Shown: positions 38,742-46,606 of the stretch, piece by piece
Layout of the letters: each line of letters begins with the position of its first letter
How positions within the stretch are numbered: the stretch's first letter is position 1
Assembly (NCBI GenBank): GCA_018056165.1
Contig: JAGPGD010000007.1
Span: 1 to 64,000, forward strand
DNA from: Paludibacteraceae bacterium
GTDB taxonomy: Bacteria > Bacteroidota > Bacteroidia > Bacteroidales > Paludibacteraceae
Length of the DNA stretch: 64,000 bases
Reading direction: 5' to 3'
The notes under the pieces: generated by a model
The model's input: the letters and a program-made list of their open reading frames with translations, nothing else
What the model was told of the DNA's origin: nothing
Database searches by the model: none
Position numbers and translations under genes: made by a program

Positions 38742-40052
38742 ATGATTATTGATAAGGAACTTGTTGATTCACTATTTGCCCAATTTGGTACTTCTGATAT
38801 CAATCAACTCTCTATTCGTGAAATCGGTAAACTGGTTTCTCAAATTGAAAAACAAAGCGGTATAGAATTTATTCACATGGAAATGGGTGTGCCGGGTTTG
38901 CCCACTTTACCTGTTACCGTTCAGGCAGAAAAGGAAGCATTAGATAAAGGTTTAACCTCACTTTATTCCGACATTGAAGGAATTCCATTTTTTAAAACGG
39001 AGACAGCACGTTTTGCTAAATTATTCATAAATCTTGAAGTCAGTCCTTTAAATTGTATTCCAACAGTAGGAGCAATGCAAGGAAGTTTTGCAGCTTTATT
39101 AGCATCTGCTCGTACCAATGTTAAAAAGCCCTATACACTTTTTATCGATCCAGGTTTCCCTGTTAATAAATCACAGTTACAACTGTTGGGATTACCTTAT
39201 AAATCGTTTGATATTTTAAATTTCAGAGGTGAGAAACTTCGAGAGAAATTGCTTTCCTATTTAAAAGAAGGGGATATTTGTACAATTACTTATTCGTCTC
39301 CTAATAATCCCTCATGGATTAACTTGACAGAAGAAGAATTGCAAATCATTGGTGAACTGGCTACTCAATATGATGTGATCGTGGTAGAAGATCTGGCTTA
39401 CTTTGGAATGGATTTTCGTTACGATTATGGAAAGCCTGGTGTCCCGCCTTATCAACCCACAGTGGCACATTATACAGATAATTATATTTTGTTACTTTCT
39501 GCTTCGAAAATTTTTAGCTATGCTGGTCAACGAATAGGAATGATGATCATTTCTGAAAAGTTACGAACTCGACATTATCCACTTTTGAAAAATTATTTTA
39601 CCAGTGATGTGCTGGGACATTTCATTCCTTATGGAGTTTTGTATGCAACAACTGCTGGGACTTCACATACTGCACAATATGCGGTAGCTGCTACCTTGAA
39701 AGCAATAAACGATGGCGAGGTTGATTTTTTAAAAGAACTTGCTGTTTATGGAGAAAAAGCCCGACAAATGAAATCATTGTTTTTAAAAAATGGTTTTTAT
39801 CTCGTTTATGATGAAGGTGGAAAATTGGCAGATGGTTTTTATTTTACTGTTGCCTACCCTGGAATGACGAGCAACGAATTATTGAAAGAATTTCTTTATT
39901 ATGGTTTAAGTGCCATTTCGTTGACCATTACAGGAAGCAGCGACCCAAATGGTTTGCGAATTTGTGTCTCCTTTGTAAGAGAAGACCAAATTCCTGAATT
40001 AGAAAAACGATTAGCAGATTTTTCAAAAGAAAGAACAAGAAAAAAATTTTGA
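38742..40052 (+). CDS. PLP-dependent aminotransferase, class I/II
   Basis: A 436-residue aspartate-aminotransferase-fold enzyme. The PLP lysine is in SASKIFSYAGQRIG (Lys256). The PLP-contact blocks are TITYSSPNNPSWINLTEEE and VVVEDLAYFGMDFRYDYG. The end of the large domain contains LRICVSFVREDQI. Its substrate cannot be read, but the position behind ACT-PaaK makes an aromatic or branched amino acid plausible. An 84-base gap separates it from PaaK. Confidence 0.88.
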   Translation: MIIDKELVDSLFAQFGTSDINQLSIREIGKLVSQIEKQSGIEFIHMEMGVPGLPTLPVTVQAEKEALDKGLTSLYSDIEGIPFFKTETARFAKLFINLEVSPLNCIPTVGAMQGSFAALLASARTNVKKPYTLFIDPGFPVNKSQLQLLGLPYKSFDILNFRGEKLREKLLSYLKEGDICTITYSSPNNPSWINLTEEELQIIGELATQYDVIVVEDLAYFGMDFRYDYGKPGVPPYQPTVAHYTDNYILLLSASKIFSYAGQRIGMMIISEKLRTRHYPLLKNYFTSDVLGHFIPYGVLYATTAGTSHTAQYAVAATLKAINDGEVDFLKELAVYGEKARQMKSLFLKNGFYLVYDEGGKLADGFYFTVAYPGMTSNELLKEFLYYGLSAISLTITGSSDPNGLRICVSFVREDQIPELEKRLADFSKERTRKKF

Positions 40053-40219
40053 GTTAATTCTTACCAAATTTGTCATTAGGATTGAATTTCTAATGGCAGT
40101 CATTAGAAAAAGTACTTTATAATTATTTAAATTTCAATATAATGCATCGACAAAATATTCAAAAAATTGAGACTTTTCAAAATTGAATGTAAGAAATTTT
40201 TACTCAATTTTTTTTATTG

Positions 40220-40269
40220 TTTTGGCAATTTCAGCTTTGCTTCAGTTGTTTTGATACAAATTAAAATTT
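40220..40269 (+). repeat. Degenerate motif shared with 29278-29327
   Basis: Both stretches run TTTTGGC, then an AATTT/GCTT-rich part, then ATACAAA-TTAAA, at roughly two-thirds identity by eye. It lies in the 273-base gap between the aminotransferase and the VIT1 gene. I see no gene here. Confidence 0.35.
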
Positions 40270-40325
40270 CCCTACAAAAAAATCTTCATTCTTCCCGCAA
40301 CTTCGTAAACTCAAAACTTTTTCTA

Positions 40326-41189
40326 TTAAGCATTTACGCCTAATACACTATTAAGTATATAACCTATAAAAAATGAAAAGGCTGCTACTCCTAAGCTGAT
40401 AAAGCACATTTCAAAAAAACGAGATTTAAACTCGAGATCTTTTGCCACAGAGATATAATAATTAAAAAAGAAAATTATTAATACTGCCAGTAATAATGTT
40501 AGCGATAAAGCAAAAAATCTGCTGGATAATAATAAAAATGGAAGAATAAGAAAAATAACAGTGAAAAAATAAGTTATACCTGTATAAGCAGCCGATTTTT
40601 TGGCTTTTTTATTACCTTCTGCTTTCGAGGAAAGATAATCGGAAGCCGCCATAGACAAGGCAGCAGATATTCCTGTAACTAATCCTGCTAATGAAATGAT
40701 TCTGGTTGTTCCCAAAGTTAAAGTAAAACCTGCCAGTGCTCCGGTTAATTCGACGAGAGCATCATTAAGACCTAACACAATAGAACCGACATATTGTAAT
40801 CGCTCTTCATCGAGCATTGTTAATAATTGTTGTTCGTGAATGCTTTCTTCTTCAGCAAAAAATTTTGTCTCCGGAATAATATTTGACAATTCATTATAAA
40901 GTTTTGAACCTGTTCCTTCGCGTTTTTCCATTTGTTTTAATACAAACGACAGTCCCAATAAACGAGCCAGAAAAACAGTGTAAGTAATTCTCCAATAGTT
41001 TGGTTTAACTTTAAGGTTGGTTTTTTCTTGCCAAAATGCTGCATGTTGTTTTTCTTGTTCACTTATGGTGTGTAAAATTTCAGCATTTTTTTGATCTTTA
41101 CATTCTTCTGCTAAACGTTTATAAATAAAATGTTCAGTGATTTCATTTCGTTGTACTGATATTAACAGTTTTCTCGTTTTTTTGTCCAT
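40326..41189 (-). CDS. Ferritin-like / VIT1 family iron transporter
   Basis: A 287-residue membrane protein that joins two modules. Residues 1-130 or so are a cytoplasmic rubrerythrin/ferritin-like domain with the diiron-type motifs NEITEHFIYKRLAEE, EQEKQHAAFW and EEESIHEQQLL. Residues about 135-287 are a CCC1/VIT1 transporter with the signatures IVLGLNDALVELTGALAGF and SMAASDYLSSKAEG, then further membrane helices. VIT1 proteins move Fe2+ or Mn2+ out of the cytoplasm; the ferritin-like module would bind and perhaps oxidise the iron. The membrane-bound ferritin MbfA is a comparable fusion. Role in iron or peroxide stress is inferred. No ferric-uptake box is visible to me upstream. Confidence 0.85.
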   Translation of the reverse strand: MDKKTRKLLISVQRNEITEHFIYKRLAEECKDQKNAEILHTISEQEKQHAAFWQEKTNLKVKPNYWRITYTVFLARLLGLSFVLKQMEKREGTGSKLYNELSNIIPETKFFAEEESIHEQQLLTMLDEERLQYVGSIVLGLNDALVELTGALAGFTLTLGTTRIISLAGLVTGISAALSMAASDYLSSKAEGNKKAKKSAAYTGITYFFTVIFLILPFLLLSSRFFALSLTLLLAVLIIFFFNYYISVAKDLEFKSRFFEMCFISLGVAAFSFFIGYILNSVLGVNA

Positions 41190-41310
41190 AGTATATTTAT
41201 TTTGATTTTGATTTTATAAGACAATTAATTTTAATTAGAAATAAACTAAGAAAAACAAAGTAAAAAAAATATTAATCCGTTCCAATGCAGAAAAATAAGA
41301 TTTTAAAAAA

Positions 41311-41350
41311 CAAAAAACCCTCGTTGAAAGTTTATTGTCAACCAGGGTTT
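41311..41350 (-). terminator. Terminator of the FKBP array
   Basis: AAACCCT (41315-41321) pairs with AGGGTTT (41344-41350), and inside GTTGA (41323-41327) pairs with TCAAC (41338-41342), with one C-C mismatch between. On the minus strand TTTTGTTTTTTAAAA follows. It ends the three-gene FKBP transcript. Confidence 0.75.
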
Positions 41351-41406
41351 ATTAAAATTTCTTTTATATCCTTTTATAAGATATTGAAATTGCTATAAAG
41401 CTGCTT

Positions 41407-42270
41407 TTATTTTTCAATTGAAAGTAATTCAATTTCAAAAATAAGAGGTGAATAGGGTTTAATTAATCCCTGTTCCTGACCACCATAAGCCAATTCCTGA
41501 GGAACATAAATTTTATATTTCGAACCTACTGGCATTAATTTTAGAATTTCCTGCCAACCTTTGATTACTTGATTGACATAGAATACACTAGGTTCTTTAC
41601 GTTCCACAGAACTGTCAAAAACAGTTCCATCTATCAACGTACCGTGATAATGAACTTTTACTTTACTACTATCAGTTGGTATGGGACCATTTCCTTTTTT
41701 GATAATTTCGTATTGTAAGCCACTTGGAGTGATAATTACTCCCGGTCTTTTGGCATTTTCTTTTAAAAATAATTCTCCTGCAGCTTTAGTGGCAGCATAT
41801 TCTTTTTCAATTTGTTTAGCCTGCCGATTCTGCATGGTGCTCTGCAAATATACTTTTGCTTCTTCAGGTTCCATTTGAATGTTTGATCCCCTTAGTCCAT
41901 TCACCAATCCTTGTTTAATTAGGTTGATATCAGTTTTTAAAGTTGAGTCACCCATTAAGCCAATTTTTTCCTGCTCTTTTAGTGAAGACCCAATTTGAGT
42001 ACCTAAAAAAGAAATTTCCAGATGTTCTTTTTCTACTTTCGATTTAAGTCCATCATTCATGCCTTTGATAAGAGATTTTATAGTTTCATCAGAAGAGTCG
42101 CCTTGTAAATAATAATTTTTAATACCATCTCCATTGGCAACACCAAAAGCATAGTTTAAACTGTCAAGTTGGTTTTTCAGAACTGGTTTAGCTGGTTTGT
42201 TACTATTACAGGAAACAATGGCAAAAGCAATTAGAATGATGAGAACCGAGAATATATTAATCTTTTTCAT
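41407..42270 (-). CDS. FKBP-type peptidyl-prolyl isomerase lipoprotein
   Basis: An exported isomerase of 287 residues. The lipobox is in FAIVSCNSNKP, so it is membrane-anchored by lipid at Cys21. A FKBP_N dimerisation domain follows (residues about 35-165: QLDSLNYAFGVANGDGIKNYY). The FKBP_C catalytic domain occupies about 185-285: KVKVHYHGTLIDGTVFDSS, VIKGWQEILKLMPVGSKYKIYVP, QELAYG, PLIFEIELL. It is a folding helper in the periplasm. It is the last of three FKBP_N genes and starts 26 bases after the middle one. Confidence 0.92.
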   Translation of the reverse strand: MKKINIFSVLIILIAFAIVSCNSNKPAKPVLKNQLDSLNYAFGVANGDGIKNYYLQGDSSDETIKSLIKGMNDGLKSKVEKEHLEISFLGTQIGSSLKEQEKIGLMGDSTLKTDINLIKQGLVNGLRGSNIQMEPEEAKVYLQSTMQNRQAKQIEKEYAATKAAGELFLKENAKRPGVIITPSGLQYEIIKKGNGPIPTDSSKVKVHYHGTLIDGTVFDSSVERKEPSVFYVNQVIKGWQEILKLMPVGSKYKIYVPQELAYGGQEQGLIKPYSPLIFEIELLSIEK

Positions 42271-42296
42271 TTCGAATTAGTTTATTGTTATAAATT

Positions 42297-42818
42297 TTAT
42301 TTCGTATTAAGAGTATCTAATGTGCTATCTTTTTCAGGAACAGATGGTAAAGCTTGTTCAGAAGCTTTTTTAGCCTGCAATTCGTACATAGTTTTTTGAA
42401 GATATTCTTGAGCTTGTTGAGGGCTCATTCCTCCATCAAAATTGTATAAAGCATTGATAATTCCTTGCTTTACCAGCTTTGTATTGAAAGCCAGAGTAGT
42501 GTCAGCCATCAAACCGTGAGATTCTTGAAATTTTAGCGAAGTGCCAATCTGATAACCTAATTGATACCATTTGTCAGTTTTCTTGCTTTTGTAAGCTTTG
42601 TCAAGAGCGTTCATAAATGCTTCGATAGGTTTATCGGAAGAATCATTTTGTAAATAGTAATTTTTTATACCTTCTCCATTCACCAGACCGAGTGTGTAAT
42701 TTAAGCTATCATTCTGATTGCTCAATTCACTTTTTTTGGCTTCGTACTTATTTTTACACGAAACCATTAAAAATGTAGTCATTACTACTATTAAGGACAA
42801 AATACTTAATTTTTTCAT
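42297..42818 (-). CDS. FKBP_N-domain lipoprotein lacking the isomerase domain
   Basis: A 173-residue lipoprotein (lipobox LMVSCKNK) with only the FKBP_N dimerisation domain. It is clearly paralogous to the next gene: both have DSLNY, then GLVNGEGIKNYYLQ (here) against GVANGDGIKNYYLQ. The sequence stops after a short low-complexity tail (ALPSVPEKDSTLDTLNTK), with no FKBP_C domain. There is no sign of a frameshifted remainder in the 26 bases before the next gene. It may be a dimerisation partner or a decayed duplicate; its reading frame and signal are intact, which favours a working protein. Confidence 0.85.
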   Translation of the reverse strand: MKKLSILSLIVVMTTFLMVSCKNKYEAKKSELSNQNDSLNYTLGLVNGEGIKNYYLQNDSSDKPIEAFMNALDKAYKSKKTDKWYQLGYQIGTSLKFQESHGLMADTTLAFNTKLVKQGIINALYNFDGGMSPQQAQEYLQKTMYELQAKKASEQALPSVPEKDSTLDTLNTK

Positions 42819-42841
42819 TGCATCATTTTTTGATAATGTTA

Positions 42842-43576
42842 TTATTGGTTGTTTTCTTCGTCAGGATTAATTTCGAGCAATTCTACTTCAAAAATTAGAG
42901 GTGAAAAAGGAGGTATTACATTTCCGGCTCCTTGTGCTCCATAAGCAAGTTCGTAAGGAATATAAAATTTATATTTTGAACCTACTGACATTAAACAAAG
43001 TCCTTCACTCCAGCCTGGAATTACCTGATTTAAAGCAAAAACTATAGGTTCTCCTCGATCAATGGAGCTATCGAACTTAGTACCATCTATTAAAAAACCT
43101 TCATAATTGACTTTTACTTTGTCAGTATTAGCAGGTTTAGGTCCTTCAGTAGCTTTTAAAATTTCATATTGTAAGCTACTTTCCGTAGTTATTATTCCTT
43201 CTTTTTTCTTGTTTTGTTCCATAAAGGCAATCGCTGCAGTTTTTCTCTCCTCAGAATCTTTGGCTTGAGCTGCAGTAAAATAATCTCTCAAATAGTTGTT
43301 GGCAGAATCAAAAGACATAATAGCTGAATCGCCTTTCATAGCTGTAGCAAATCCTTTGATTATCAAATCCACATTAGTTTTACCGCCCGGAATGGTTTTT
43401 ATATTTTTTAAAAAATCGTTCCCTACCAGCAGACCTAAGGCATAACTCATTGAATCTACATTATTGGTAAAAGTTATATCTGATTGATTTTTCCTCTCAG
43501 TTTTCTTAGGTTTTTTTGCTTCAGCGGATATAATCAATAATGTGATAGAAAAAAATAAAATGATGGTTTTCTTCAT
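42842..43576 (-). CDS. Periplasmic FKBP-type peptidyl-prolyl isomerase
   Basis: A 244-residue isomerase with an ordinary signal peptide (MKKTIILFFSITLLIISAEA) and no lipobox. A FKBP_N region covers residues about 35-115 (SMSYALGLLVGNDFLKNI), and the FKBP_C domain about 140-240: KVKVNYEGFLIDGTKFDSS, VIPGWSEGLCLMSVGSKYKFYIP, YELAYGAQGAGNVIPPFSPLIFEVELL. The catalytic pattern is complete. It is the first gene of the three-gene array, with a -7 box 66 bases upstream. Unlike its neighbour at 41407 it would be soluble in the periplasm. Confidence 0.92.
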   Translation of the reverse strand: MKKTIILFFSITLLIISAEAKKPKKTERKNQSDITFTNNVDSMSYALGLLVGNDFLKNIKTIPGGKTNVDLIIKGFATAMKGDSAIMSFDSANNYLRDYFTAAQAKDSEERKTAAIAFMEQNKKKEGIITTESSLQYEILKATEGPKPANTDKVKVNYEGFLIDGTKFDSSIDRGEPIVFALNQVIPGWSEGLCLMSVGSKYKFYIPYELAYGAQGAGNVIPPFSPLIFEVELLEINPDEENNQ

Positions 43577-43641
43577 TGATAAAAAATCTAAATGTTTTTA
43601 TACATGTTAACTTAAAATGAACAAGTGATTTATAAGCGGTG

Positions 43642-43649
43642 CAAAGATA
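43642..43649 (-). promoter_or_regulatory. Candidate -7 box of the FKBP array
   Basis: On the minus strand TATCTTTG fits TAnnTTTG, 66 bases before the start codon of the first FKBP gene. No -33 TTG at the usual spacing. Confidence 0.4.
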
Positions 43650-43687
43650 GTTAATTTATTACACAATAACATGTTAATATTTCAAAA

Positions 43688-45472
43688 TTATCGTAGTGAG
43701 ACTACAATAGGAATTTTAGCCTGTTTTTTTATTCCTAAGTCAGGTTGAATCATTTCAAAATAAAGCACATAAATGCCTGGATTGGCAATTTTGCCATCGC
43801 TTGTTTTGCCGTTCCAGAGAAAAAATCCTTCGGAAGCGAGCAGTACATTTGAAAGCAATTGACATACTTTTACACCAACAGCATTAAAAATTGTTGCAGT
43901 AGCAACAAAACCATTCGTTGCTGTTTTGTAATGAATAAGACATACATCTTCCACACCATCATTGTCAGGTGAAAAAGCTTCTGGGTCTGCCCATATAAAT
44001 CTTTCAGGTTCCATTGAAATATCAATTTCTCTATATTGAGAATTTTTATAACCTGGTGTTCCATAATTTACTTCAAAAGCTGCTGAATGCCATGATTGTG
44101 GATCCTGTGAAGGAAGAGAGGGATTAATTTTTTCCAATGAAACACCTTTTGGATTTTTTATCATAATGTGATGCCATTTTACATTATAGGTCAATTCATC
44201 ATAAATCGTATCCTTGTTATTGTTAGCTAATACCAAAGTAGCACTTTCGTTGTTAAGATTTGACCAACTGGTAGTAACAACATAACTTTCAGGTGGATAA
44301 TGGTAATAATTTAGCAATGAATCAGCATTGGGACAAACAGCTAAGCAACCAGCAGGTTTCAAAAGTGTACCTTTGGGAATTTCATATCCTGTGTTAAGAT
44401 TCCCATCTTTTTTTCGAGTAGTAAATACTATACCTGAAACATCCAGCAATTTTTCAGAACGATTGAAAATTTCAAGATACTCCGTTGAATTTAGAGGATT
44501 ATCAAACATGATTTCATTGAAAACCAGATCACCCATTTCAATTGGTTCAGTTATGCCTGTTATTTTTGTTGTATTTAAAAGAGGATTTCCTGCTAAATCA
44601 GTTGCCTCGTTAATTTCCAAAGTATAGATTTTACCACGTTGAAATTCATTTTCAAAAGTGAGTATTACAACGGTTTTGTCGACAGATATTTCAATATTAG
44701 AAGGTGTTCCTATTTCTTCATTTACAGTAAAAGTTGCCTGCAAAAAATCCATCGGCTCAGAAAACTGTAATTTTAACTGATTAGGAGGTAAAAGAGTAAG
44801 TTGTTCCCATTGAGGTGATTCCATATCAACAGCTTTATTGCCCCTAACCAAAATATCGTCAAAATAATAAGCTGAACCAGTTGTGCTAGTATTAGTATAC
44901 ATTAATCCGAAATAAAGACTTTGTTTGATAGCTAAATTCTGAACGGTTCCTTCCAAAAAGTAGTCATTTTCAGATGGCAACTTGCTGTATAGTGAAAAAT
45001 TACCATTCTCGTCACGAGTAACTTTAATTTTTATTTCAACAGGATTTCCGTCTGTACGTTTTTCAACTCCATCAATTAATTTAGTCTTTTTTATTCCCTC
45101 TTGTAGCCATAATGAAACATTATCTTTGGTATCACCAATTTTAACAAAATAGCCATTACAGCCATCGGTTATATCGTTTGTATTTGAAACAATATAAACA
45201 CTTGCATAATTGGACGAGGAAGTAGTATAAGTGATTTTCACCCATACTTCCCAAATAGCATCATCTATGGCTTCAGAAGGCGTGAACAAAAAAGAAGTAG
45301 AAGTCGTTGGAGCTTTAGATTGAAGTTGGAAGGAATTATTAATAAAAAAATTGGAAATATTTCCTGTCCATGTCGGATTGTTGGTAAAATCACCATCTGA
45401 AAAATTCTCGATTAACTGACCAAAACTTAAAAGAGGAGAAAAAAGAATAAAAAGTAAGCTTAATTTTCTCAT
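43688..45472 (-). CDS. Exported lamin-tail-domain protein with FlgD-like tail
   Basis: A 594-residue secreted protein of unknown role. Signal peptide [18 protein letters not shown]. Residues about 20-210 look like a lectin-type or LamG-type beta sandwich ([21 protein letters not shown], then YFDDILVRG). A bacterial Ig-like (SbsA-type) domain follows ([19 protein letters not shown]), then a lamin-tail domain ([24 protein letters not shown]). The last 85 residues, from [12 protein letters not shown] to [11 protein letters not shown], form a FlgD-like Ig fold. The [10 protein letters not shown] start also recalls type B sorting tails of the type IX system. It is probably a surface protein. No catalytic motif seen. 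Confidence 0.8.
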
Positions 45473-45499
45473 TTTTTAGTATATTTCAACGAAATGGAC

Positions 45500-45507
45500 T
45501 ATTTTTG
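45500..45507 (+). promoter_or_regulatory. Candidate -7 box of asd
   Basis: TATTTTTG fits TAnnTTTG. It sits downstream of the first possible ATG (45494), so transcription would begin after that codon and the ATG at 45596 must be the start. Confidence 0.45.
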
Positions 45508-45595
45508 TAATCTGAAATTTAAAGATAAATCGAACAAAAATAATAAATTATCTAATCAATTCAAGAAAGTTTTCAGAAAAATAAAAAATTTAAAA

Positions 45596-46606
45596 ATGAT
45601 GAGAGTAGCAATTGTTGGTGCCAGTGGTGCCGTTGGACAAGAATTTTTGCGTGTGTTGTCAGAACGCAATTTCCCGGTTACAGAATTATTCCTTTTTGGT
45701 TCTCACCGGAGTGCAGGGAAAGAATATGAATTTAACGGGAAAAAAATTCCTGTCAAAGAATTGAAACATGGTGATGACTTTAAAAATATAGATTTAGCTT
45801 TTACTTCGGCTGGAGCAAGCGTATCCAAAGAATTCGCTAAAGATATTACCAAATTTGGTACCGTAATGATCGATAATTCTTCTGCCTTCAGGATGGATGA
45901 GGATGTTCCTTTAGTAGTACCAGAAGTAAATGCCAGTGACGCAAAAAGCCGTCCCAGAGGAATTATTGCCAACCCAAACTGTACCACTATTCAAATGGTA
46001 GTAGCTTTGAATGCAATAGAAAACATTTCTCATATCAAAAGAGTACATGTTGCAACTTATCAAGCTGCAAGTGGAGCTGGCTCCGCTGCTATGGCTGAAT
46101 TGGAATTGCAATACAAGCAAATTTTAGCTGGTGAATCACCCACTGTAAACAAATTTCCTTATCAATTGGCATTTAATGTTATACCACAAGTTGATGTCTT
46201 TACTGAGAATGGTTATACTAAAGAAGAAATGAAAATGTATAATGAAACGCGCAAAATTATGCATTCTGACGTCGAAGTAAGCGCTATGTGTGTAAGAGTT
46301 CCAACCCTGAGAGCTCATTCTGAAAGCATTTGGGTAGAAACAGAACGTCCAATTAGTGTAGAAGAAGCTCGCAAAGCTTTTAAAAATGCTAAAGGAGTGA
46401 TTGTGATGGATAATCCTGAGGAGAAAGTCTATCCTATGCCAGCATTTCTTTCTGGGAAAGATGAAGTATTTGTAGGACGCATTCGTAAAGATTTAAGTTG
46501 CCCAAATGGAATTACTTTTTGGTGTGTTTCCGATCAAATAAGGAAAGGTGCAGCATTGAATGCGGTACAAATAGCTGAATATCTGATTAATGAGCATGAT
46601 ATTTAA
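45596..46606 (+). CDS. asd: Aspartate-semialdehyde dehydrogenase
   Basis: Reduces aspartyl phosphate to aspartate semialdehyde with NADPH, the branch point for lysine/diaminopimelate, threonine and methionine. The N-terminal Rossmann motif is [15 protein letters not shown]. The catalytic cysteine is in [10 protein letters not shown] (Cys near residue 128). [13 protein letters not shown] and the active-site His in [12 protein letters not shown] are present. I take the ATG at 45596 (336 residues, the usual length); the open frame up to 45494 begins before the likely transcription start and is not asd-like. Confidence 0.95.

Follow-up and report, generated by a model that had tools for sequence, protein, structure and literature searches.

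An isomerase-free FKBP_N lipoprotein conserved beside an FKBP lipoprotein in Paludibacteraceae: a candidate holding module

A three-gene FKBP array

The window analysed here is a stretch of 64,000 nucleotides from a Paludibacteraceae genome, and its minus strand carries three consecutive FKBP-related genes, separated by gaps of 23 and 26 bases. The upstream gene (P0003; 43576..42842) encodes a 244-aa FKBP with a signal peptide that lacks a lipobox, one FKBP_N unit and an FKBP_C domain; its product is probably periplasmic and soluble. The middle gene (P0001; 42818..42297) encodes a lipoprotein whose lipobox ends at Cys21 and whose reading frame stops at 173 aa, after an apparently doubled FKBP_N unit and with FKBP_C absent. 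The downstream gene (P0002; 42270..41407) encodes a 287-aa FKBP lipoprotein, called the partner below, which has a lipobox, FKBP_N units at residues 35-78 and 89-178, and FKBP_C at residues 198-283.

Pfam recognizes FKBP_N in all three proteins (cut-off 22), with 30.9 bits for the middle protein, 77.2 for the partner and 70.5 for the upstream FKBP. FKBP_C is found in the two outer proteins only, the middle one giving no match up to an E-value of 1. Over 158 columns, the middle protein shares 45% identity with the partner's N region, the GIKNYYLQ block included; the match between the middle and the upstream protein is far weaker. These results bear out a sequence-only reading of the locus, which had described three adjacent FKBP_N genes, with a middle lipoprotein that resembles its downstream paralogue and ends before the isomerase domain. 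In the assembly from which the window is taken (2.02 Mb, 94.67% complete), the FKBP_N model matches these three places and none elsewhere.

On the minus strand, 3′ of the partner gene, lies a hairpin followed by a U-run (41305..41365; -16.8 kcal/mol, z -3.71, 0 of 200 shuffles as low), a probable terminator closing a three-gene operon. A simple promoter and terminator scan, which takes loops of 3-8 only, missed this hairpin, and its results were at or below shuffle level. The Bacteroidota -7 box, in the form we take it to have, occurs at chance level; two minus-strand copies, at 43642-43649 and 43683-43690, precede the first gene. An Rfam search of positions 40000-46000 matched no family. Beyond the array, a protein with a rubrerythrin-like stretch followed by VIT1-family matches (40326-41189, minus strand) appears to be ordinary.

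Conservation, selection and fusion in relatives

In a single-sequence search of 40 relatives and the window's own genome, 21 of the 41 genomes matched at E ≤ 0.001, and none of the 16 from other families did. Both genomes searched from the same genus, G001 and G002, have the gene in an open frame (identities of 68% and 65%). A scan of named genomes yielded 62 loci, 37 of them with Paludibacter or Paludibacteraceae in the record title and the rest mostly with Bacteroidales or Bacteroidetes; some of these loci appear to come from genomes of the first search (e.g. L034 and G001), and the two samples are not independent. In 44 of the 62 loci the genes are split, an isomerase-free lipoprotein standing directly before an FKBP lipoprotein. 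The remaining 18 encode a fused form, a single chain of 409-430 aa with two N domains and one FKBP_C (N-N-C). The array search in relatives that the sequence-only reading had proposed thus finds the partner reading frame next to the isomerase-free gene in all 44 split loci. Stop-to-start gaps between the two genes are 18-49 bp in 40 of the 42 cases measured, with one 4-bp overlap and one gap of 121 bp. The conservation seen in the two same-genus genomes and in the split loci excludes chance.

At the level of the family, a profile search matched 229 of 250 genomes (151 of 160 among those of good quality), a figure that includes partner and fused proteins, some of them weak matches, and from which arrangements cannot be counted. 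The other 21 family genomes have no profile match, further ones have weak matches only, and eight family loci hold one FKBP lipoprotein with no isomerase-free gene beside it. The isomerase-free protein is therefore dispensable and not universal across the family. Among 119 genomes of the order searched at profile E ≤ 1e-8, 11 matched; nine of these belong to other families, and there the match was always to a frame of 268-315 aa. This suggests that the doubled domain on a complete FKBP is older or wider than the isomerase-free form.

Where the gene occurs, it is under purifying selection and is not a decaying copy. We calculated dN/dS for the mature part of the protein in a sample comprising the window and 42 of the 44 split loci, L045 (partner start unclear) and L053 (partner ending at a contig edge) being left out. 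Seven non-overlapping close pairs gave 0.124, 0.015, 0.077, 0.139, 0.038, 0.104 and 0.110; values among the more distant pairs listed reach 0.77, where dS is near saturation. Over 903 pairs, the median dN is 0.41 for the middle protein, 0.34 for the N region of the partner and 0.19 for its FKBP_C, the N regions evolving about twice as fast as the isomerase domain. The earlier suggestion that an intact frame marks a gene in use has held up: we saw neither frameshift nor loss in the same-genus genomes, and the close pairs do not evolve neutrally.

The same data bear on the view that the middle gene is a functionless, drifting remnant of an FKBP duplicate from which the catalytic half has gone. 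A tandem copy can easily lose FKBP_C, and in one second array (L104, below) the partner copy lacks FKBP_C as well. Against drift stand the low dN/dS of the close pairs and the open frames in both same-genus genomes and the split loci; moreover, in three listed genomes whose profile match crossed a TAA, complete ORFs were found on reading. Decay of a duplicate was rejected on the open frames in relatives and on dN/dS well below 1 in close pairs, and we regard the remnant view as extremely improbable.

Two assemblies have unusual arrays. At L102 (G221:C81; 2632-3135 and 2049-2588, minus strand), two isomerase-free lipoprotein genes stand in tandem ahead of the partner; the signal peptide of the second copy is partner-like, yet its N domain falls in the isomerase-free clade. 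At L104 (G088:C186; 1407-1859 and 1896-2396, minus strand), which is the second array of that assembly, FKBP_C is missing from both lipoprotein genes; the N domain of the last one groups with those of partners, and the array is followed by a regulator-like reading frame similar to that after the array of L030. This second array could be real, decayed or a binning error.

The neighbourhood upstream raises the possibility that the middle lipoprotein serves as an anchor for the upstream soluble FKBP, bringing a single-unit isomerase to the membrane. An FKBP of 235-290 aa ends at most 250 bases upstream in 41 of the 42 split loci where one was sought, as well as in the window, where it has no lipobox. 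However, all 17 fused named loci with enough upstream sequence list no such FKBP directly upstream, while the fused protein stays, and the fusions seen join the downstream gene instead. We think the anchor role very unlikely. Three other fused loci (L011, L017 and L099) do keep the upstream FKBP. A further short FKBP of about 194 aa belongs to the array in 36 of 42 split loci. It does not stand beside the array of the window (43577-43690) or in L034 and L035, and the FKBP_N model gives no copy of it elsewhere in the window's assembly.

Phylogenetic trees connect the isomerase-free proteins with the fused form. The N-domain sample was thinned by hand to 26 plus three extra copies out of 53 isomerase-free proteins, 26 of 50 partners, 20 of 27 distinct fused proteins and all eight single lipoproteins. 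In the resulting tree of 103 N domains, which has few columns for its number of rows, one clade (SH-aLRT 97) unites 24 of the 26 isomerase-free proteins, 15 of the 20 fused first N domains and two of the three extra copies. The same clade holds none of the 26 partner N domains, none of the 20 fused second N domains and none of the eight N domains from single lipoproteins. Outside it are the isomerase-free proteins of L093 and L094, both on long branches, the extra isomerase-free copy L104b, which groups with the partners, and five of the 20 fused first N domains (L013, L019, L020, L024 and L095). By sequence, then, the counterpart of the isomerase-free protein is in most cases the N domain that comes first in its natural fusions with the partner. 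A partner tree of 47 rows (20 of 50 split partners, 19 of 27 fused and all eight single proteins) needs five changes between split and fused states, singles aside, and its starred branches force at least two; split L065 is sister to fused L099 (97/88). The switch between one gene and two has probably occurred more than once.

The linkers of many fused proteins retain what is probably a trace of this history. Once the identical proteins L010 and L089 are taken as one, 27 distinct fused proteins remain, and 19 of these have a cysteine exactly 14 residues ahead of the D-S motif in their second N domain; by manual count, 15 of the 19 read C-x2-K, as in the context C-P-T-K-A-K-x3-L-K. Among 50 separate partners, 45 have their lipid-anchored cysteine 15 residues ahead of this motif, as in C-N-N-T-K-A-K-x3-L-K (L074). 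The fused linkers that we printed have no hydrophobic signal peptide ahead of the cysteine. In the lineage of these 19 proteins, two lipoprotein genes have probably fused, the second losing its signal but keeping its anchor cysteine as a fossil; the other eight of the 27, which lack the linker cysteine, may be separate fusions. Gene fusion suggests, without proving, that the two proteins interact, and the constant pairing in split loci together with the fused form makes a working partnership between the middle protein and the partner likely.

Several details of the fused loci can be added. In L070 the linker cysteine lies around residue 164. At L089 (4294-5547), the fused protein is directly followed by a second protein of 418 aa with two N-domain matches and FKBP_C, and without a lipobox by the pattern used. 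As a raw count, 14 of the 18 titles for the fused loci (L068-L073, L077, L079, L081, L082, L086-L092 and L095) name an animal gut site or faeces. Titles of split loci rarely do, with at least one exception, L093, from goat rumen.

Domain architecture and membrane location

An AlphaFold2 model of the window's isomerase-free protein, made from a 45-row alignment, has five helices of high local confidence (residues 35-55, 62-74, 83-101, 113-124 and 133-155; mean pLDDT 79.8, pTM 0.71). The tail after residue 155 is of low confidence, with pLDDT below 50 at residues 163-173; in 43 aligned separate proteins the tails are rich in P, Q and A, with a median of 17 residues and a range of 3-34. The model of the fused relative L070 comprises two five-helix domains and an FKBP fold (mean pLDDT 90.4, pTM 0.72), joined by a less well predicted linker.

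A profile of the single FKBP_N unit, built from the other FKBPs of these loci, was used to count units, each called at iE < 0.1. Two units are found in 39 of 43 partners and in 14 of 43 isomerase-free proteins, and four units in three of 18 fusions. In the window, both units of the partner are recognized (iE 0.009 for the first and 3e-11 for the second), and the first unit (unit A) of the isomerase-free protein is weak (iE 0.5). Direct profile comparison of units A and B within the isomerase-free set is likewise weak, at 10% probability, or 0.4% in global mode. In the fused model, full-length Mip and FkpA chains align to residues 222-419 (Z 23-25, rmsd 6-9 Å, 181-195 residues), a region made up of the second unit of the second N domain, a long helix and FKBP_C. 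Since this N domain starts at residue 176, a Mip chain matches only the part that begins with the second unit, which leaves the first as an extra. The N domain of both the middle protein and the partner thus appears, from these profiles and models, to hold two copies of the Mip/FkpA dimerisation unit. This would make it a single-chain pseudo-dimer, in which, by analogy, the added unit would take the place of the second chain of the Mip dimer.

A search with Foldseek and VIA using the window model gave no FKBP or Mip row among the matches listed. This absence does not speak against the fold, because in a Mip dimer another chain contributes the second unit. Searching the sequences of solved structures with the middle protein gave no match up to an E-value of 10. 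The partner aligns with Legionella Mip over residues 117-287 (E 3e-39), through all of FKBP_C. The residues that we take to form the FKBP active site (Tyr, Phe-Asp, Val-Ile, Trp, Tyr and Phe) are identical between the two in this alignment. Lacking FKBP_C, the middle protein is not classed as an FKBP isomerase. Its conserved architecture, an apparently doubled FKBP_N without FKBP_C, would otherwise look like a truncated FKBP; among the titles and beginnings of abstracts listed in searches of open-access literature, none describes an isomerase-free FKBP_N lipoprotein.

A permissive lipobox pattern is present in all 53 isomerase-free proteins. In one study (PMC12578637), the criterion for surface exposure is at least two acidic residues within six after the cysteine. 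None of the 53 isomerase-free proteins and four of the 49 partners with a lipobox have such residues. The lipobox and the absence of a surface-export signal point to both lipoproteins lying on the periplasmic face of a membrane. At L098 (3213-4046), a partner FKBP without a lipobox stands beside an isomerase-free protein that has one, and there only the latter would be membrane-anchored.

Location also bears on the proposal that the isomerase-free lipoprotein is a docking subunit, linking the partner to an assembly in the membrane, for example the Bacteroidota BAM complex, and leaving clients untouched. According to two studies (PMC12578637, PMC12611786), Bacteroidota BAM complexes contain lipoproteins with a peptidyl-prolyl isomerase fold, BamJ, BamK and BamM, from the same phylum as the proteins described here, and the NCBIfam BamJ model scores 117.3 bits on the partner (cut-off 100). 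However, this match is confined to FKBP_C and also reaches the upstream FKBP (109.4 bits), and the model matches in 10 of 14 control genomes, above the cut-off in three. A different place in the window's genome (C19:504-929) matches nearly the whole BamJ model, below the cut-off (77.5 bits), and the middle protein has no BamJ match. Furthermore, BamJ, BamK and BamM are surface-exposed, whereas the isomerase-free proteins have an apparently doubled FKBP_N and no surface-export signal; the lack of this signal makes a surface BAM role like that of BamJ unlikely for them. We consider docking rather unlikely. BamJ membership, raised by the NCBIfam score, was rejected on the FKBP_C-only match, the control-genome matches and the absent surface-export signal.

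Possible roles in partnership with the FKBP lipoprotein

Work on FKBP22 offers the closest comparison. As reported there (PMC3179164), Mip-type dimers form via the FKBP_N domain, with helix 1 from one chain packed against helix 2 from the second. On its own, the N-domain dimer has a KD of 3.4 uM for a folding intermediate, compared with 2.2 uM for the whole protein, while binding by the C domain went undetected (PMC3179164). An engineered variant with a tandem N domain, NNC-FKBP22 (Budiman 2009, as recounted in PMC3179164), is a monomer with good peptide isomerisation; it binds the intermediate 6.5 times more weakly than wild type (14.4 uM) and catalyses protein folding far less.

The proteins described here resemble these constructs in several respects. 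The middle protein has FKBP_N by Pfam and, as N-N without C, is like a single-chain version of the FKBP22 N-domain dimer; the partner, which aligns with Legionella Mip, has the N-N-C order of NNC-FKBP22; and full-length Mip and FkpA align with the part of the fused model that contains unit B and FKBP_C. They differ from Mip, FkpA and FKBP22 in that the middle protein lacks FKBP_C, is encoded by a separate lipoprotein gene and has an N domain apparently doubled within one chain. In contrast to NNC-FKBP22, they are natural, lipid-anchored, encoded either by a pair of genes or in fused form with as many as four units, and known from sequence. The best reading, by analogy, is that an isomerase-free holding protein with an adjacent isomerase is the natural counterpart of the engineered enzyme.

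We give about an even chance to the view that the product of the middle gene is a conserved holding module, membrane-anchored and isomerase-free, acting together with the adjacent FKBP lipoprotein. Its helical module would bind unfolded clients and pass them to the FKBP_C of the partner, which would then isomerise their prolyl bonds. Such a pair of holder and foldase would replace the two-armed, V-shaped homodimer of Mip and FkpA, and the fusions of other lineages would be the same pair as one chain. This arrangement would involve both client binding and contact with the partner. If NNC-FKBP22, the closest engineered analogue, is a guide, a single-chain double unit may hold clients poorly, and its weak holding counts against one double unit as a good holder. 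For this reason the claim that we put forward is one of avidity from two modules and not from one: the partner would be a single-chain isomerase that holds clients weakly, and a second holding module, on the same membrane, would be supplied by the middle protein.

Going further, we tentatively suggest, with less than even confidence, that these genes constitute a natural two-gene chaperone, in which the holding and isomerase halves of a Mip-type enzyme exist as separate lipidated single-chain pseudo-dimers acting in trans, occur as one chain in more than one lineage, and in one of these lineages keep a fossil anchor cysteine. To our knowledge, the chaperone and isomerase functions of Mip-type enzymes have so far been separated only by protein engineering. 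Whether periplasmic FKBPs need the isomerase domain, the holding domain or the V-shaped dimer is a question that has been studied with engineered fragments (PMC3179164). In the relatives surveyed above, such fragments exist as separate genes under selection, in fused form and as single proteins, and these are natural variants to which that question can be put.

It has also been proposed, in the sequence-only reading, that the middle protein may be a heterodimer partner that lowers activity. In this scheme it would form mixed, Mip-type swapped dimers with FKBP lipoproteins, each one-armed and less active, and act as a dosage-controlled brake. The adjacency of the genes, the identity to the N region of the partner and the constant pairing in split loci are all compatible with mixed dimers, as is the FKBP_N-mediated dimerisation of Mip-type proteins. 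Partnership, the first half of the proposal, is likely, as set out above. The swapped, activity-lowering heterodimer fares less well: both halves of the dimer core seem to be present within a single chain, though the first unit of the middle protein is weak, and the window protein is predicted to fold alone. In addition, a brake leaves unexplained the repeated fusion into one chain with a fixed 1:1 ratio. A swapped heterodimer is not needed, and we judge it unlikely and a weaker reading than that of a holding module working with a foldase.

Evolutionary rates speak weakly for mixed dimers. In 36 loci where all genes were found (the window, having no short FKBP, was left out), the rates of the middle protein and of the partner N domain covary beyond the two neighbouring FKBPs, with a partial r of 0.68, or 0.74 in 29 loci, values to be read with the caveat that pairs are not independent, the distances come from one shared tree and the two domains are paralogues. 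Covariation with the middle protein is seen for the upstream FKBP too (0.72 and 0.74 given the short FKBP). As a control, the N and C domains of the partner, which belong to the same protein, gave -0.06 and 0.20.
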